Shown here piece after piece: positions 57,065-62,616 of a stretch of 64,000 nt of DNA. How positions within the stretch are numbered: position 1 is the stretch's first letter; the number at the start of each line of letters is the position of its first letter. The DNA comes from Pseudoxanthomonas suwonensis (lineage in GTDB: Bacteria > Pseudomonadota > Gammaproteobacteria > Xanthomonadales > Xanthomonadaceae): positions 3,035,118 to 3,099,117 of the forward strand of contig NZ_CP011144.1 of assembly GCF_000972865.1 (NCBI RefSeq), in the 5' to 3' direction. The translations under genes were made by a program, and so were the position numbers. The notes beneath the pieces were generated by a model. It had not been told where the DNA came from, ran no database searches, and worked only from the letters and a program-made list of their open reading frames with translations.

Positions 57065-58195
57065 ATGAGCGATGTGCTTGAACTGGCGCGCGAATTGATC
57101 GCGCGTCCTTCCGTCACCCCCGACGACGCCGGCTGCCAGGCGCTGCTCGCCGCGCGCCTGCAGCGCGCCGGCTTCGCCTGCGAGCACTTGCGCTTCGGCG
57201 AGGTCGACAACCTCTGGGCCACGCACGGCAGCGGCGCGCCGGTGCTGGTCCTGCTCGGCCATACCGACGTGGTGCCGCCCGGCCCGCGCGAAGCCTGGAG
57301 CAGCGATCCGTTCGCGCCGGAAATCCGCAACGGCGTGCTGTACGGCCGTGGCGCGGCGGACATGAAGGGCAGCGTGGCCGCGTTCGCGGTCGCCGCCGAG
57401 CGGTTCGTGGCGGCGCATCCGGAGCATCCCGGCACGCTGGCCATCCTGCTCACCTCGGACGAGGAAGGCGACGCCATCGACGGCGTGCGACGGGTCGCCG
57501 ACCTGTTCCGCGAGCGCGGCCAGCGCATCGACTGGTGCATTACCGGCGAACCGTCCTCGACCGCCAGGCTCGGCGACCTGCTGCGCGTGGGCCGCCGTGG
57601 CAGCCTGTCGGGCACGCTGACGGTGAAGGGTGTGCAGGGCCACGTCGCCTATCCGCACAAGGCGCGCAACCCGATCCACCAGGCCGCGCCGGCGCTGGCC
57701 GAACTCGTCGGGCAGGTCTGGGATGGAGGCTATGAGAGCTTCCCGCCGACCTCGCTGCAGATCAGCAATATCCACGCCGGCACCGGCGCCAACAACGTCA
57801 TCCCCGGCGAACTGCAGGTGCTGTTCAACCTGCGCTACAACCCGCACTGGAATGCGCCGGCACTGGAGGCGGAGATCGCCGCGCTGCTGGACCGGCACGG
57901 CCTGGAGTACGAACTGCGCTGGCACCGCAGCGGCGAGCCGTTCTACACGCCCGAGGGCCGGCTGCGCGCGGTCGCGCGCGAAGTGCTGGGCCAGTTTGCC
58001 GGCGAGCCGCCGGAGGAGAGCACCGGCGGCGGAACCTCCGACGCCCGCTTCATCGCGCCGCTGGGTGCGCAGTGCATCGAGATCGGCCCGGTCAACGCCA
58101 GCATCCACCAGGTCGACGAGCACGTATCAGTCGCCGATCTGGAGGCGCTGCCCGCCCTCTACGGCCGCCTGGTCGAACGCCTGCTGTTGTTGTAG
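57065..58195 (+). CDS. dapE: Succinyl-diaminopimelate desuccinylase
   Basis: 376 residues, M20 metallopeptidase family. Metal and catalytic motifs: [12 protein letters not shown] (His, Asp), [14 protein letters not shown] (Asp), [12 protein letters not shown] (Glu-Glu), and the C-terminal [11 protein letters not shown] and NASIHQVDE. It releases succinate from N-succinyl-L,L-DAP, completing the step begun by DapD. The last codons are CTG TTG TTG TAG; this TAG belongs to the GTAG of the next REPIN. Confidence 0.96.
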
Positions 58196-58288
58196 GAGCC
58201 GGCATGACGGCGACACGGGCGTCGGAATCGCGAGGGCGTCGCCTGTGCCGACGGCGTCGTGTCGCCGGCTGAACCCGGCTCCTACAAC
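58190..58288 (+). repeat. REPIN overlapping the dapE stop codon
   Basis: Left arm (stem GCCG-GCATGA-CGGC) and right arm (stem GCCGG-CTGAAC-CCGGC) are different REP subtypes. The GTAG includes the dapE stop (58193-58195). It separates dapE from the convergent ABC1-kinase gene. Confidence 0.88.
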
Positions 58289-58307
58289 AGCAGGTTGGGC
58301 GAGGCGC

Positions 58308-59981
58308 CTAGTGCGGCCCGTGCTGCTCGTTCGGCCTGGCCTTGCGGTCGCGCAGCAGGGCGCTGAGGGCGATCGTCAGTCCCAGTACCGCCGCGATCAG
58401 GAACAGCACCACCGCCAGCGCCGGATAGCCGAACAGCTGCGCCTTGGTCTCCACCCGCATCAGCATCGCCGACGAGATCAGCAGCGCGGCGGTGACCACC
58501 GCGGCGGCGATGCGGTTGGCGATCTTCTGCATGTTCTCCATCAGCCGCGAGTGCTCCAGGCCCTCGAGGCGTACCTGCAGCCGGTTCTCGGCCAGCAGCG
58601 ACAGCACGTCGGAGATCTTGCGCGGTGCGTCGCGCAGCAGGCCCTGCACCTCGAGCGCCTCGCTGGCCAGGTTGGCGCTGGTGAAGGAGCGGCGCAGTTG
58701 CGCACGCATGATCGACTGCAGGTGCGACTCGACCAGCGTGCGCACGTCCATCTGCGGGTTCAGCGCGTCGGCGACCCGTTCCAGATTGAGCAGGGTTTTG
58801 CCCAGCAGGCTGATCTCGGCCGGCACGCGCAGGCCGTGCTCGGCGGCGCAGCCGACCAGCTCCAGCAGCAGCCGGCCCTCGGAGGTGCGCTTGCCGCCGG
58901 TGGCGTAGCGCGCGACCAGCTGGCCGGTGTCGCGGTTGAAGGCGACATCGTCGAACTGCTCCAGCCGCGTGCCGATCGCGACCAGCTCGCGCGCCACGTC
59001 CTCGCCGCGCGCGTCCACCGCCGCGAACAGCAGCTTGAGCAGGCGCTCGCGCATGCGCGGCGGCACCTGCGCGACCATGCCCAGGTCGATCAGCGCCAGG
59101 CGCCCGTCCTCGCACAGCAGCACGTTGCCCGGGTGCGGGTCGGCATGGATGTCGCCGTTCACGAACACCTGGTCCAGGTAGGCATGCATCAGTTCGGCCG
59201 CCGGCGTGGCCAGGTCCAGCTCGGTGCGGCGCAGGCCGGAGATGGTGGTGACCTTGACGCCATGGACCAGTTCCATGGTCAGCACGCGCGAGGTGCACAG
59301 GCCCCAGAGCGGCGCCGGCACGTACAGGTTCGGGTAGGCGGCCAGGTGCTCGCGGAAGCGATCCAGGTTCTCTGCCTCGCGCCGGTAGTCCAGCTCCAGC
59401 AGCAGGATCTTGCGGAACTCGGCGATCCAGCCGGCGAAGTGCATGCGCCGGCCAGTCTCGGTCAGCGCGTCGGCGGTGCCGGCCAACCCTGACAGCACCT
59501 CCAGGTCCAGGCGGATGGCCGCGTCCATGCCCGGGCGCTGCACCTTCACCGCGACCTCGCGGCCGTCGCGCAGGGTGGCGCGGTGCACCTGCGCCAGCGA
59601 GGCGGCGGCCAGCGGCACCGGGTCGAAGGACAGGAACAGCCGGTTGAGCTTGGCGCCCAGCTCGTCCTCGACGATCTTCTCGACCACCGCGGTGTCCACC
59701 GGCGCGACCTCGTCCTGGATCCGGTCCAGTGCGTCGATGTAGGCCGGCGGCACCAGGTCCGGGCGGGTGGACAGCGACTGGCCGAGCTTGATGAAGGCCG
59801 GGCCCAGCGATTCCAGGTCGGCGGCGAAGGCCTGCGCCTCGGCGATGCCCGACGCGTCGGCGATGGTCGGCTCGACCGGCGGTGCGTGGCTCCAGTCCAG
59901 GCCGGTCAGCACCCGCCGGTGCCGGGCCAGGCGGGCGACGACCTGGGCGGTGCGGGCGAGGCGGTGGGTGGTATCGGGCAC
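58308..59981 (-). CDS. AarF/ABC1/UbiB-family kinase-like protein
   Basis: 557 residues from a GTG. The unusual-kinase motifs are all present: the KxGQ motif in PAFIKLGQSLSTRPDL, the Ala-rich loop in PLAAASLAQVHRATL, VAVKVQRPGM, and the catalytic NGDIHADPHPGNVLL with LIDLGMVAQV. Two hydrophobic segments lie at the C-terminus (IAAAVVTAALLISSAMLM and ALAVVLFLIAAVLGLTIALS). UbiB helps ubiquinone synthesis or transport, but no other ubi gene is here and this may be a paralogue, so no symbol is given. It is convergent with dapE and divergent from the asnB leader. Confidence 0.88.
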   Translation of the reverse strand: MPDTTHRLARTAQVVARLARHRRVLTGLDWSHAPPVEPTIADASGIAEAQAFAADLESLGPAFIKLGQSLSTRPDLVPPAYIDALDRIQDEVAPVDTAVVEKIVEDELGAKLNRLFLSFDPVPLAAASLAQVHRATLRDGREVAVKVQRPGMDAAIRLDLEVLSGLAGTADALTETGRRMHFAGWIAEFRKILLLELDYRREAENLDRFREHLAAYPNLYVPAPLWGLCTSRVLTMELVHGVKVTTISGLRRTELDLATPAAELMHAYLDQVFVNGDIHADPHPGNVLLCEDGRLALIDLGMVAQVPPRMRERLLKLLFAAVDARGEDVARELVAIGTRLEQFDDVAFNRDTGQLVARYATGGKRTSEGRLLLELVGCAAEHGLRVPAEISLLGKTLLNLERVADALNPQMDVRTLVESHLQSIMRAQLRRSFTSANLASEALEVQGLLRDAPRKISDVLSLLAENRLQVRLEGLEHSRLMENMQKIANRIAAAVVTAALLISSAMLMRVETKAQLFGYPALAVVLFLIAAVLGLTIALSALLRDRKARPNEQHGPH

Positions 59982-60081
59982 GGCGCTTTCCCTGTACAGG
60001 TCCCCGCCCGGTGGGCGGCATGCAGTCGTCGGGAGTATTGGACGGCGGATGTGAGCGCCTTGTCAGTTGCCCCTGCAACGG

Positions 60082-60111
60082 TTGCGGGGCCGCCGCGGGC
60101 CGGGTTAGTGT
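60082..60111 (+). promoter_or_regulatory. Candidate promoter of the asnB leader
   Basis: TTGCGG (60082-60087) and TAGTGT (60106-60111) are 18 nt apart. Transcription would start near 60118, the A of the leader ATG. An imperfect inverted repeat (GCCCC-T-GCAA/TTGC-GGGGC, 60069-60090) overlaps the -35 and could be an operator. Confidence 0.4.
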
Positions 60112-60117
60112 CGGCCC

Positions 60118-60216
60118 ATGCTCTCCACCCGCCGCGCCAATCCGGTCAATCGCAACCGCAACAACAATGCGGTCAATAACCGTGCGCGGCCGATGCGGGA
60201 GCGTGAGCGGGGCTAG
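60118..60216 (+). CDS. Asn-rich leader peptide of the asnB attenuator
   Basis: A 32-codon frame, ATG to TAG. The first seven residues are MLSTRRA, then residues 8-21 read NPVNRNRNNNAVNN: eight Asn in 14 codons (four AAT, four AAC). The end is Arg/Glu-rich. No ribosome site precedes the ATG, and a -10 box ends 6 nt before it, so the message may be leaderless. Downstream lie an antiterminator segment, a strong terminator, and asnB. This is the layout of a leader whose translation senses the supply of charged tRNA-Asn. Confidence 0.82.
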   Translation: MLSTRRANPVNRNRNNNAVNNRARPMRERERG

Positions 60217-60270
60217 AGCAGCGACAGCCCGGTCACCACGAAACCCGCATCGGCCGATGCGGGTTTTTTT
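60188..60270 (+). promoter_or_regulatory. Attenuator of asnB: antiterminator/terminator switch
   Basis: Segment 3 (60244-60255, CCCGCATCGGCC) is complementary over 12 nt to two identical sequences GGCCGATGCGGG: segment 2 at 60188-60199 inside the leader frame, and segment 4 at 60252-60263. Pairing 2:3 gives the antiterminator; pairing 3:4 gives the terminator (palindrome 60241-60266, AAACCCGCATCGG/CCGATGCGGGTTT, with T7 at 60264-60270). A ribosome stalled on the Asn codons would leave segment 2 free; one that reaches the stop at 60216 would disturb it. asnB starts 76 nt after the T-run. Confidence 0.85.
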
Positions 60271-60345
60271 GTGCCCGGAGCAGGCGCCGCGTGGCCGCGA
60301 TCGATGCACGGATACGTATCACCACCCACACCCAGGAGTCTTCGC

Positions 60346-62055
60346 ATGTGTTCGATCTTCGGCATCTTCGGGCTGCAACCGGGCGACGACCTGCAGGCGC
60401 TGCGCCGGCAGTCGCTGGACCTGTCGCAGCGGCAGCGCCACCGCGGCCCGGACTGGAGCGGGGTGTACCTGGACGACGGGGCGATCCTGGTGCACGAGCG
60501 CCTGGCCATCGTCGATCCGGCCGGCGGCTCGCAGCCGCTGCTGTCGGAGGACGGGCGGCTGGCGCTGGCGGTCAACGGCGAGATCTACAACCACCGGGCG
60601 CTCAAGGGCGAGCTCGCGCAGCCCTACGCGTTCCAGACCGCCTCGGACTGCGAGGTGATCAATGCGCTGTACCTCGAAGGAGACGGGCTCGGCGATGAAC
60701 CGGCCTCGTTCCTCAACCGGCTCAACGGCATATTCGCCTTCGCCCTGTGGGACAAGGCGCAGGGCCGGGCGATCATCGCCCGCGATCCGATCGGGGTCTG
60801 CCCGCTGTACTGGGGCCATGACCGCGAGGGCCGCCTGCGCGTAGCCTCGGAGATGAAGTCGCTGGTGGACGAGTGCGCCGACGTGGCCCAGTTCCCGCCC
60901 GGCCACTGGTACGACACGGCCACCGGCACGCTGACCAGGTACTACGAGCGTCCCTGGCGCGACTACGCCGCGGTGGAAGGCGTGGACGTATCTGCGCAGG
61001 AGCTGCGCGAGGCCTTCGAGGCGGCCGTACACCGCCAGCTGATGACCGACGTGCCCTACGGCGTGCTGCTGTCCGGCGGCCTGGATTCCTCCCTGGTGGC
61101 CGCGGTCGCGGCGCGCTACGCCCGCCACCGCATCGAGGACGGCGACAGGACCGAGGCCTGGTGGCCGCGGCTGCATTCCTTCGCCATCGGCCTGAAGGGC
61201 TCCCCCGACCTGGCCGCGGCCAAGGTCGCCGCCGAGGCGCTGGGCACCGTGCACCACGGCTTCGAATACACCTTCGAGGAGGGCCTGGACGCGCTGCCGG
61301 AGGTGATCCGCCACATCGAGACCTACGACGTCACCACCATCCGCGCCTCCACGCCGATGTTCCTGCTGGCGCGGCGGATCAAGGCGATGGGGGTGAAGAT
61401 GGTGCTGTCGGGCGAGGGCAGCGACGAGGTGTTCGGCGGCTACCTGTACTTCCACAAGGCGCCGAACGCGCGCGAGTTCCACGAGGAGCTGATCCGCAAG
61501 CTCGACGCGCTCAACAACTACGACTGCCTGCGCGCCAACAAGTCGATGATGGCCTGGGGCGTGGAGCCGCGGGTGCCGTTCCTGGACCGCGAGTTCCTCG
61601 ACGTGGCCATGCGCATGGATGCCAGCCACAAGATGGTGCGCAAGGGCGGCGACGGCCCGCAGCGGATGGAGAAGGGCGTGCTGCGCCAGGCCTTCGACGG
61701 CTACCTGCCCCAGCAGATCCTGTGGCGGCAGAAGGAGCAGTTCAGCGACGGCGTCGGCTACGGCTGGATCGACGGGCTCAAGGCGCAGGCCGAGGCGCAG
61801 GTGAGCGACCGCGAGCTGGCCGCGGCCGACAAGCGTTTTCCGGTGAACCCGCCGCAGACCAAGGAGGCGTACTTCTACCGGTCGATCTTCGAGCGCTTCT
61901 ATCCGACTCCGGCTGCGGCCGAGACCGTGCCGGGTGGCAAGTCGATCGCCTGCTCCTCGCCGGCGGCGATCGCCTGGGACGCGAGTTTCGCGACGATGGC
62001 CGATCCGTCCGGGCGCGCCGTCGCAGGCGTGCACGAGTCCGCGCACGCTTTGTAG
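60346..62055 (+). CDS. asnB: Asparagine synthetase B (glutamine-hydrolysing)
   Basis: 569 residues. Cys2 follows the initiator Met (MCSIFGIFG) and is the glutaminase nucleophile; RHRGPDWSG, ERLAIVDPAGGSQPL and VNGEIYNHRAL complete that domain. The synthetase domain has the pyrophosphatase loop LLSGGLDSSLVA (about residues 241-252), SGEGSDEVFGGYLYFHKAP and the C-terminal VPGGKSIACSSPAAIAWDA. It makes Asn from Asp, ATP and Gln. The ribosome site CAGGAG is clear. The gene lies behind an Asn-rich leader and terminator. Its stop TAG (62053-62055) is part of a REPIN GTAG. Confidence 0.97.
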   Translation: MCSIFGIFGLQPGDDLQALRRQSLDLSQRQRHRGPDWSGVYLDDGAILVHERLAIVDPAGGSQPLLSEDGRLALAVNGEIYNHRALKGELAQPYAFQTASDCEVINALYLEGDGLGDEPASFLNRLNGIFAFALWDKAQGRAIIARDPIGVCPLYWGHDREGRLRVASEMKSLVDECADVAQFPPGHWYDTATGTLTRYYERPWRDYAAVEGVDVSAQELREAFEAAVHRQLMTDVPYGVLLSGGLDSSLVAAVAARYARHRIEDGDRTEAWWPRLHSFAIGLKGSPDLAAAKVAAEALGTVHHGFEYTFEEGLDALPEVIRHIETYDVTTIRASTPMFLLARRIKAMGVKMVLSGEGSDEVFGGYLYFHKAPNAREFHEELIRKLDALNNYDCLRANKSMMAWGVEPRVPFLDREFLDVAMRMDASHKMVRKGGDGPQRMEKGVLRQAFDGYLPQQILWRQKEQFSDGVGYGWIDGLKAQAEAQVSDRELAAADKRFPVNPPQTKEAYFYRSIFERFYPTPAAAETVPGGKSIACSSPAAIAWDASFATMADPSGRAVAGVHESAHAL

Positions 62056-62150
62056 GAGCCGGATTCAGCCGGCGACGCGACGCTATTGGCACAGGCGACG
62101 CCCTCATGATCCCGACGCCCGTGTCGCCGACTGAAGCCAGCTCCTACAGT
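62050..62150 (+). repeat. REPIN overlapping the asnB stop codon
   Basis: Left arm TTGTAGGAGCCGGATTCAGC (stem GCCGG/CCGGC); right arm ends GCCAGCTCCTACAG, with stem GCCGACTGAAGCCAGC partly paired. The GTAG holds the asnB stop codon. Confidence 0.88.
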
Positions 62151-62172
62151 AAGGACAGCCGCGCCGCTGCTG

Positions 62173-62273
62173 TTGTAGGAGCTGGCTTCAGCCGGCGACA
62201 CGACGCCGGCGGCACAGGCGGCGCCCTCCGGGTTCCGACGCCCATGTCGCCCACTGGAGTGGGCTCCTGCAAG
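62173..62273 (+). repeat. REPIN, second copy after asnB
   Basis: Tandem to the preceding element. The left arm (TTGTAGGAGCTGGCTTCAGC) keeps a paired stem (GCTGG/CCGGC with a G-T pair); the right arm GCCCACTGGAGTGGGC forms GCCCACT/AGTGGGC and ends CTCCTGCAA. The two elements fill the 62056-62295 gap. Confidence 0.85.
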
Positions 62274-62295
62274 AAGGCGCAGCGGTTGCTTCGCC

Positions 62296-62616
62296 TCAGC
62301 CGCAGGTGACCCGGGTGATGGTGTTGTTGCCGTCGATCTCGACGTTGACCCGGTCGGGGCGGAAATCGCGGGTCACCGCCGTGCCCGGGCCGATCGGGCG
62401 GATCAGGCCGGCGCCGCTTTCGCGCCAGACCCGGCCCATCACCTCCTGCTCGGCCTGCTGGCCGACGGCCCAGGCCACCGGTTCGGCATTGCAGGCGCCG
62501 GCCGCGGTGCCGTTGCGGCCGGGTGCGCCCGGATCGGGCTGGACCGAACTGCACGCGGCCAGCTGTACCGTGGCGGCGAATATAGTGAGGGACAGGACGG
62601 CGGAGTGCGGTTGCAT
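62296..62616 (-). CDS. Lipoprotein of the I78 peptidase-inhibitor family
   Basis: 106 residues. Signal with lipobox LAAC-SS at about residues 19-24. The mature part has the I78 pattern: Cys (GACNAEPVAWAVGQQAEQEV), ESGAGLIRPIGPGTAVTRDF, RPDRVNVEIDGNNTITRVTC, ending CG. The two Cys probably form a disulfide. I78 proteins resemble Aspergillus elastase inhibitor; the target protease is unknown. The gene lies 66 nt downstream of the penicillin-acylase-like gene and in the same direction. Confidence 0.82.
   Translation of the reverse strand: MQPHSAVLSLTIFAATVQLAACSSVQPDPGAPGRNGTAAGACNAEPVAWAVGQQAEQEVMGRVWRESGAGLIRPIGPGTAVTRDFRPDRVNVEIDGNNTITRVTCG

Follow-up and report, generated by a model that had tools for sequence, protein, structure and literature searches.

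The window, the whole 64-kb stretch of DNA analysed here (bases 3035118-3099117 of a 3.89-Mb single-contig genome), carries asnB behind a short asparagine-rich reading frame and a hairpin with a T run. The sequence-only reading had named this gene asnB, and profile PRK09431 confirms the name with 863.7 bits against a cut-off of 499; the nearest AsnB among the 73 sequences of our tree is that of Pseudoxanthomonas kalamensis (91% identity). The features of the locus, numbered from the first base of the window, are as follows.

58308-59981, divergent from asnB and upstream of it: UbiB-like kinase gene, scoring below the UbiB cut-off
60082-60087, + strand: predicted -35 element, TTGCGG (TTGC near this distance, by eye, in nearly all of 40 aligned loci)
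60106-60111, + strand: predicted -10 element, TAGTGT, after an 18-nt spacer and ending 6 nt before the leader ATG (promoter scan of loci)
60118-60216, + strand: leader peptide frame, ATG to TAG, 32 codons, eight Asn (sequence; conserved in relatives)
60120-60137, + strand: candidate segment 1, pairing with about 60184-60202 (minimum-energy fold; not constant in relatives)
60139-60180, + strand: Asn codon block, four AAT and four AAC, the predicted sensing part (kept in relatives)
60187-60199, + strand: segment 2, CGGCCGATGCGGG, antiterminator arm near the frame end (duplex and fold tests)
60241-60266, + strand: intrinsic terminator hairpin 3:4 (sequence and fold)
60244-60256, + strand: segment 3 in the antiterminator, its 5' part doubling as the terminator 5' arm (duplex and fold tests)
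60264-60270, + strand: T run of the terminator, seven T (sequence)
60334-60338, + strand: Shine-Dalgarno-like AGGAG of asnB (sequence; such a word before asnB in 69 of 73 loci)
60346-62055, + strand: asnB, asparagine synthase B (profile match PRK09431)

The leader frame and its alternative hairpins

The leader frame encodes MLSTRRANPVNRNRNNNAVNNRARPMRERERG, with asparagine at residues 8, 11, 13, 15, 16, 17, 20 and 21, and direct reading of the sequence bears out the earlier description of a 32-codon frame with eight Asn in residues 8-21. It is the sole stop-free stretch of 14 residues with at least six Asn in the six frames of the 64-kb window, the runner-up having five. A leader-peptide attenuator would be expected to show, in a short frame ahead of a gene, a series of codons for the amino acid that this gene makes.

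Between the frame and asnB lies an intrinsic terminator (60241-60270), whose arms AAACCCGCATC (60241-60251) and GATGCGGGTTT (60256-60266) enclose the loop GGCC (60252-60255) and form 11 pairs, or 12 including one G-U. The run of seven T (60264-60270) had been read correctly before, and the arm of 13 nt assigned to the hairpin is to be replaced by this shorter stem. The 12-nt word GGCCGATGCGGG, previously reported at 60188-60199 and 60252-60263, is indeed present at both places. As a partner of segment 3 the first copy gains one 5' base (C at 60187), and the antiterminator pairs 60187-60199 with 60244-60256 over 13 pairs. The earlier proposal that the terminator 5' arm has two exclusive partners holds in this form, with other arm coordinates: the 5' and 3' arms first proposed overlap, 60244-60263 being a perfect palindrome. 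A fixed-pattern terminator scan of 59950-60400 did not list the leader terminator, probably because its stem runs into the T run.

The 2:3 duplex of the window is calculated at -31.1 kcal/mol against -16.3 ± 2.3 for shuffled sequences, none of 200 being as good. The fold z is -4.6 for 2:3 and -3.4 for the whole leader, the terminator being formed in the latter. Both in the window and in most relatives, pairing 2:3 would exclude 3:4 and segment 2 lies at the frame end. Candidate segment 1 forms a 1:2 hairpin in the whole-leader minimum-energy fold of the window. In shorter folds the core of segment 2 is paired upstream, with shifting partners, at 40 of 60 loci, the window not being one of them, and a constant 1:2 hairpin was not established. 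Fourteen bases separate segment 2 from the stop codon in the window, so that a ribosome at the stop, to judge from the usual size of its footprint, would mask segment 2 only partly.

The genome of the window encodes an AsnRS, found with a score above its curated cut-off, and a single asnB; a search of it for asnA returned none. With this set of genes, charged tRNA-Asn should depend on free asparagine and, asnB being the sole asparagine synthase gene found, would be a signal for the product of the gene under control. Control of asnB by tRNA-Asn charging would make sense in such a genome. The asnS of the same genome has no frame with at least three Asn in 14 residues within 1.5 kb upstream on either strand.

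Leader, terminator and predicted promoter in related genomes

A scan of named genomes with AsnB was used for comparison, and the best 80 of more than 80 loci were kept. In the AsnB tree, the Lysobacterales asnB clade comprises 39 leader loci of these 80, the window, and L015, L022 and L039. Of the 42 clade loci among the best 80, 39 have an Asn-rich frame before asnB, always at the same place, with 3 to 8 Asn in 14 residues and at least five in 34 of the 39. Among the 38 loci outside the clade, where start-codon frames of 8-60 codons were counted, L068 has four Asn and the other 37 at most four in 14; before the asnB genes of Shewanella, Vibrio, Colwellia and similar bacteria, no start-codon frame with more than four was found. 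One control without leader (L048) reaches five Asn in 14 if read from stop to stop and has no terminator behind. The three asnB genes inside the clade that have no attenuator (L015, L022 and L039) come from assemblies named Holophagales, Rhodococcus and Deltaproteobacteria and are transferred or misbinned genes.

An independent, even sample covered 121 genomes of the order, 77 of which, the window's included, have AsnB at E 1e-100 or better; upstream DNA was read for the other 76. Three families have the Asn frame in 18 of 19, 15 of 16 and 3 of 3 genomes (36 of 38), with 3 to 8 Asn in 14 residues (L121 has three, L117 four and all others at least five). The two misses inside these families, G061 and G082, have distant AsnB (66 and 64%). 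The remaining families of the order, with AsnB at most 68% identical, contribute the frame in 1 of 38 genomes, namely L133. The sequence-only reading had proposed looking for the Asn run in relatives, and the run is found there in both samples. The leader of L133, MFAIYNTINTTNNRLLRSAGSF, belongs to a distant family of the order (AsnB 64%) and is followed by a terminator with eight T. Its frame end pairs with the terminator arm, to a degree that 9 of 500 plain shuffles reach, and it looks like a true leader and was counted as one.

A hairpin of at least seven pairs with a T run stands behind the frame in 73 of the 77 leader loci, the four that fail being L018, L019, L045 and L102. Controls were tested at the Asn-densest frame of each locus. 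Of 85 loci taken as having no leader, 41 contain some stretch of at least three Asn in 14 and four have a terminator behind: L133, and L070, L072 and L146, which by eye resemble ends of upstream genes and were rejected as leaders. Further, 17 additional genomes of the class, outside the order, have at most four Asn in 14, and a terminator follows the frame in none of them. The leaders of L018 and L019 combine 7-8 Asn and a strong hairpin with a poor T run and no convincing segment 2 in the usual place.

The pairing of segments 2 and 3 was examined by comparing the frame end with the terminator 5' arm plus loop against dinucleotide shuffles in 41 loci (the window, the 39 clade loci and L068). 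The duplex beats at least 95% of shuffles in 28 and falls below that level in 13 (L002, L011, L018, L019, L026, L031, L032, L033, L037, L040, L045, L068 and L075). A strict test of a five-base core is passed by 63 of 77 loci and failed by 14, several of which have one mismatch within a longer pairing. Conservation of the alternative pairing, the other check that had been suggested, is in these two tests a property of most relatives and not of the rest. The words of the two segments change together between clades: GATGCGGG is found with CCCGCATC in Xanthomonas, Stenotrophomonas and Pseudoxanthomonas kalamensis, GGCGGGCC with GGCCCGCC in most Rhodanobacter loci, and GGTGGGCC with G-U pairs in Dyella, and L020 has GCAGGCC with GGCCTGC, its terminator retaining a G-U.

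The five-base core hardly varies and thus gives little information, and the positions beside it were scored separately. The 63 fully core-paired loci reduce to 40 distinct triples which, with six flanking positions each, give 240 cells; 137 of these are paired, whereas 2000 shuffles gave 102.4 on average and 123 at most. The excess is to be read as an upper estimate, since the register was fitted to the best pairing before the shuffles and the loci are kin, both of which bias it upward. In a cross-pairing control, the segment 3 of a locus had a better match in its own leader than in that of another locus in 1115 of 1640 comparisons; with a core common to the loci, this excess is weak. From the start of the segment 2 core to the stop codon there are 13 bases in most loci, 19 in the window and as many as 25 in L014.

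Codon usage of the leader indicates that the frame is read codon by codon. In 20 alignable leaders (15 distinct), the Asn columns switch between AAC and AAT, and single-base differences at Asn codons are synonymous in 226 cases versus 52 nonsynonymous ones, counted over leader pairs that are not independent of each other. Over the last 25 codons of the named leaders, AAT accounts for 116 of 245 Asn codons, about half, versus 52 of 327, about one in six, in asnB of the same loci. In the window itself the leader has four AAT and four AAC, and asnB one AAT and nine AAC. The other codons of that leader stretch end in G or C in 633 of 728 cases. The earlier remark that half of the Asn codons are AAT, and that this is uncommon, was right and applies generally. 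Slower decoding or avoidance of long repeats may underlie the preference for AAT, both being guesses.

The promoter of the leader is predicted from conservation and not from consensus strength, a fixed sigma-70 scan of 59950-60400 having returned no promoter. In 40 loci aligned on the leader start, 17 starts being hand-picked, TTGC stands near -36, 6-7 bases separate the -10 box from the start, and position -1 is C in 37. A promoter scan that allowed distances of 0-25 gave 6-7 nt between the -10 box and the leader start for 55 of 73 loci, and at L001, L021, L025, L089 and L120 an earlier in-frame ATG lies, by eye, at this distance. Ribosome-site-like words stand before asnB in 69 of 73 loci and before the leader start in 11 of 73, where by eye they always coincide with the -10 box. 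The position of the -10 box in those 55 loci predicts a leaderless mRNA, a point absent from the sequence-only reading, with a transcript that would start at the leader AUG or no more than a base or two away. L133, which by eye has a -10-like box about 25 bases upstream of its ATG, does not look leaderless.

Asn frames before asnB in Rhodothermia

Five loci of the Rhodothermia, L068 (a Rubrivirga assembly, labelled Rhodothermota), L165, L166, L167 and L169, also have an Asn frame before asnB. Their frames, with TTG, GTG or ATG as the apparent start codon, contain 3 to 5 Asn in 14 residues and are followed by a GC-rich terminator with a T run, the stem of which is altered in both arms in L166 and L169. 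By eye they do not look leaderless. Five other genomes of the class, with AsnB at most 68% identical to that of L068, have at most four Asn and no terminator behind; two further partial matches were left out of this comparison. The 2:3 pairing beats 95% of shuffles at none of the five loci (69 to 298 of 500 were as good), so that what is shown in Rhodothermia is the Asn frame and the terminator. A 10-pair 2:3 match in L169 is suggestive only. In the AsnB tree the five loci form one clade, apart from the Lysobacterales clade, which makes two gains, carriage of the leader, or its loss all possible.

Proposed control of asnB and its relation to known systems

We consider it very likely that the leader is a transcription attenuator of asnB, predicted to work by ribosome stalling at the leader Asn codons; it is real and conserved, and probably functional. 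Transcription would start at about the leader AUG, and a ribosome would load on the leaderless 5' end. With ample charged tRNA-Asn, this ribosome would reach the stop codon and cover segment 2 wholly or partly; the 3:4 hairpin would then form and RNA polymerase would stop near 60270. If charged tRNA-Asn is short, the ribosome would stall within 60139-60180; segment 2 (60187-60199), left uncovered, would pair with segment 3 (60244-60256), and RNA polymerase would read on into asnB.

Three other explanations were weighed. The Asn frame may be a conserved small protein with a function of its own, the hairpin being its terminator and the asnB promoter lying elsewhere. Such a protein would fit a conserved frame with a terminator at its end, and the available text of PMC7298713 describes a leader peptide of S. 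meliloti, peTrpL, that can also work in trans. However, the N-terminal part of the leader and its length (about 20 to 44 codons) vary among relatives. In the leader, conservation chiefly concerns the richness in Asn, the location and the final codons, which form segment 2, and segment 2 matches segment 3; we regard this explanation as improbable. Less probable still is a ribosome-free riboswitch or a protein-bound leader that controls the terminator, with the Asn frame as an incidental feature. A terminator with an alternative fold is present, and other kinds of attenuators share this layout, but an Rfam search of 59000-62500 yielded no family at gathering score (Leu_leader, the best leader-type match, has 20 bits against 50), and what stays constant is a run of codons that differ by synonymous changes. 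The same search showed no T-box among its matches up to E 5; its microRNA matches are taken as chance. Chance in GC-rich DNA, where short frames are common and GC-rich words easily repeated, hardly merits consideration for the densest Asn stretch of the window, which recurs in 36 of 38 genomes of three families with synonymous AAC/AAT switching.

Ribosome-mediated attenuators control the his, trp, leu, ilv, thr and phe operons of Proteobacteria. The asnB leader resembles them in being rich in the end product, in its exclusive 2:3 and 3:4 pairings and in the terminator before the first gene, and differs from them in the amino acid predicted to be sensed, in the gene, asnB, and in that no constant 1:2 hairpin was established here. 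In Firmicutes, Asn-specific T-box leaders recognise uncharged tRNA by direct binding and need no ribosome. They likewise tie transcription of an asparagine gene to tRNA-Asn charging through a terminator and an antiterminator, as is predicted here; unlike these direct binders of uncharged tRNA, the asnB leader has no T-box match up to E 5.

The predicted leaderless start has a counterpart in trpL of S. meliloti, where, in the available text of PMC7298713, the attenuated RNA begins with the leader AUG and is a leaderless small mRNA. The likeness is drawn from promoter position on the asnB side, whereas trpL is a Trp leader of an alphaproteobacterium with a 5' end described in that paper. Leader-peptide systems are also mentioned in the available part of PMC2965389, among them His leader peptides of bacilli, before hisS and hisZ, as predicted attenuators. 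They parallel the Rhodothermia loci as predictions of leader-peptide attenuation outside Proteobacteria, and differ in their His codons and in belonging to Firmicutes (PMC2965389, same part).

No published Asn attenuator was found in the literature searched, most subscription papers lying outside its reach, and this partial search agrees with the earlier statement that no experimentally characterised one is known. A term search of the main text, as available, of PMC2965389, PMC1262725 and PMC8632094 found neither asparagine nor asn/asnB, and in the accessible part of PMC3771888 asnB occurs a single time, as a table entry whose expression ratios are 1.0. The mechanism, classical leader-peptide attenuation, is known; its asparagine specificity appears new as far as the literature was searched, absence of reports being no proof.

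A broader reading can be offered tentatively, at somewhat less than an even chance. Asparagine would be sensed by classical attenuation with at least two origins, in Lysobacterales and in Rhodothermota, whose asnB genes are not sisters; the Lysobacterales switch would operate on a leaderless mRNA; and the terminated RNA of about 153 bases, being a leaderless small mRNA as well, could have a trans activity like that of rnTrpL. On a leaderless mRNA the AUG would be exposed once made, and ribosome and polymerase would be coupled from the first codon. The predicted leaderless frame would offer a test bed for ribosome-polymerase coupling without an upstream initiation site. If the attenuator is borne out, asparagine would be added to the few amino acids that leader-peptide attenuation senses. 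Such control would then explain how bacteria of the order to which Xanthomonas, Stenotrophomonas and Lysobacter belong match asparagine synthesis to translation, and with the Rhodothermia cases this kind of attenuation would reach into another phylum.

A separate observation concerns the flanks of the locus. A weak mir-975 match, probably chance, falls on a palindromic intergenic repeat, similar to the REP type, at 62050-62277 and 58183-58293. It is present 3' of asnB as two direct copies of about 105 nt each, 80% alike, and before the 3' end region of the UbiB-like gene as an inverted copy of 80-85 nt that is 90-91% complementary.
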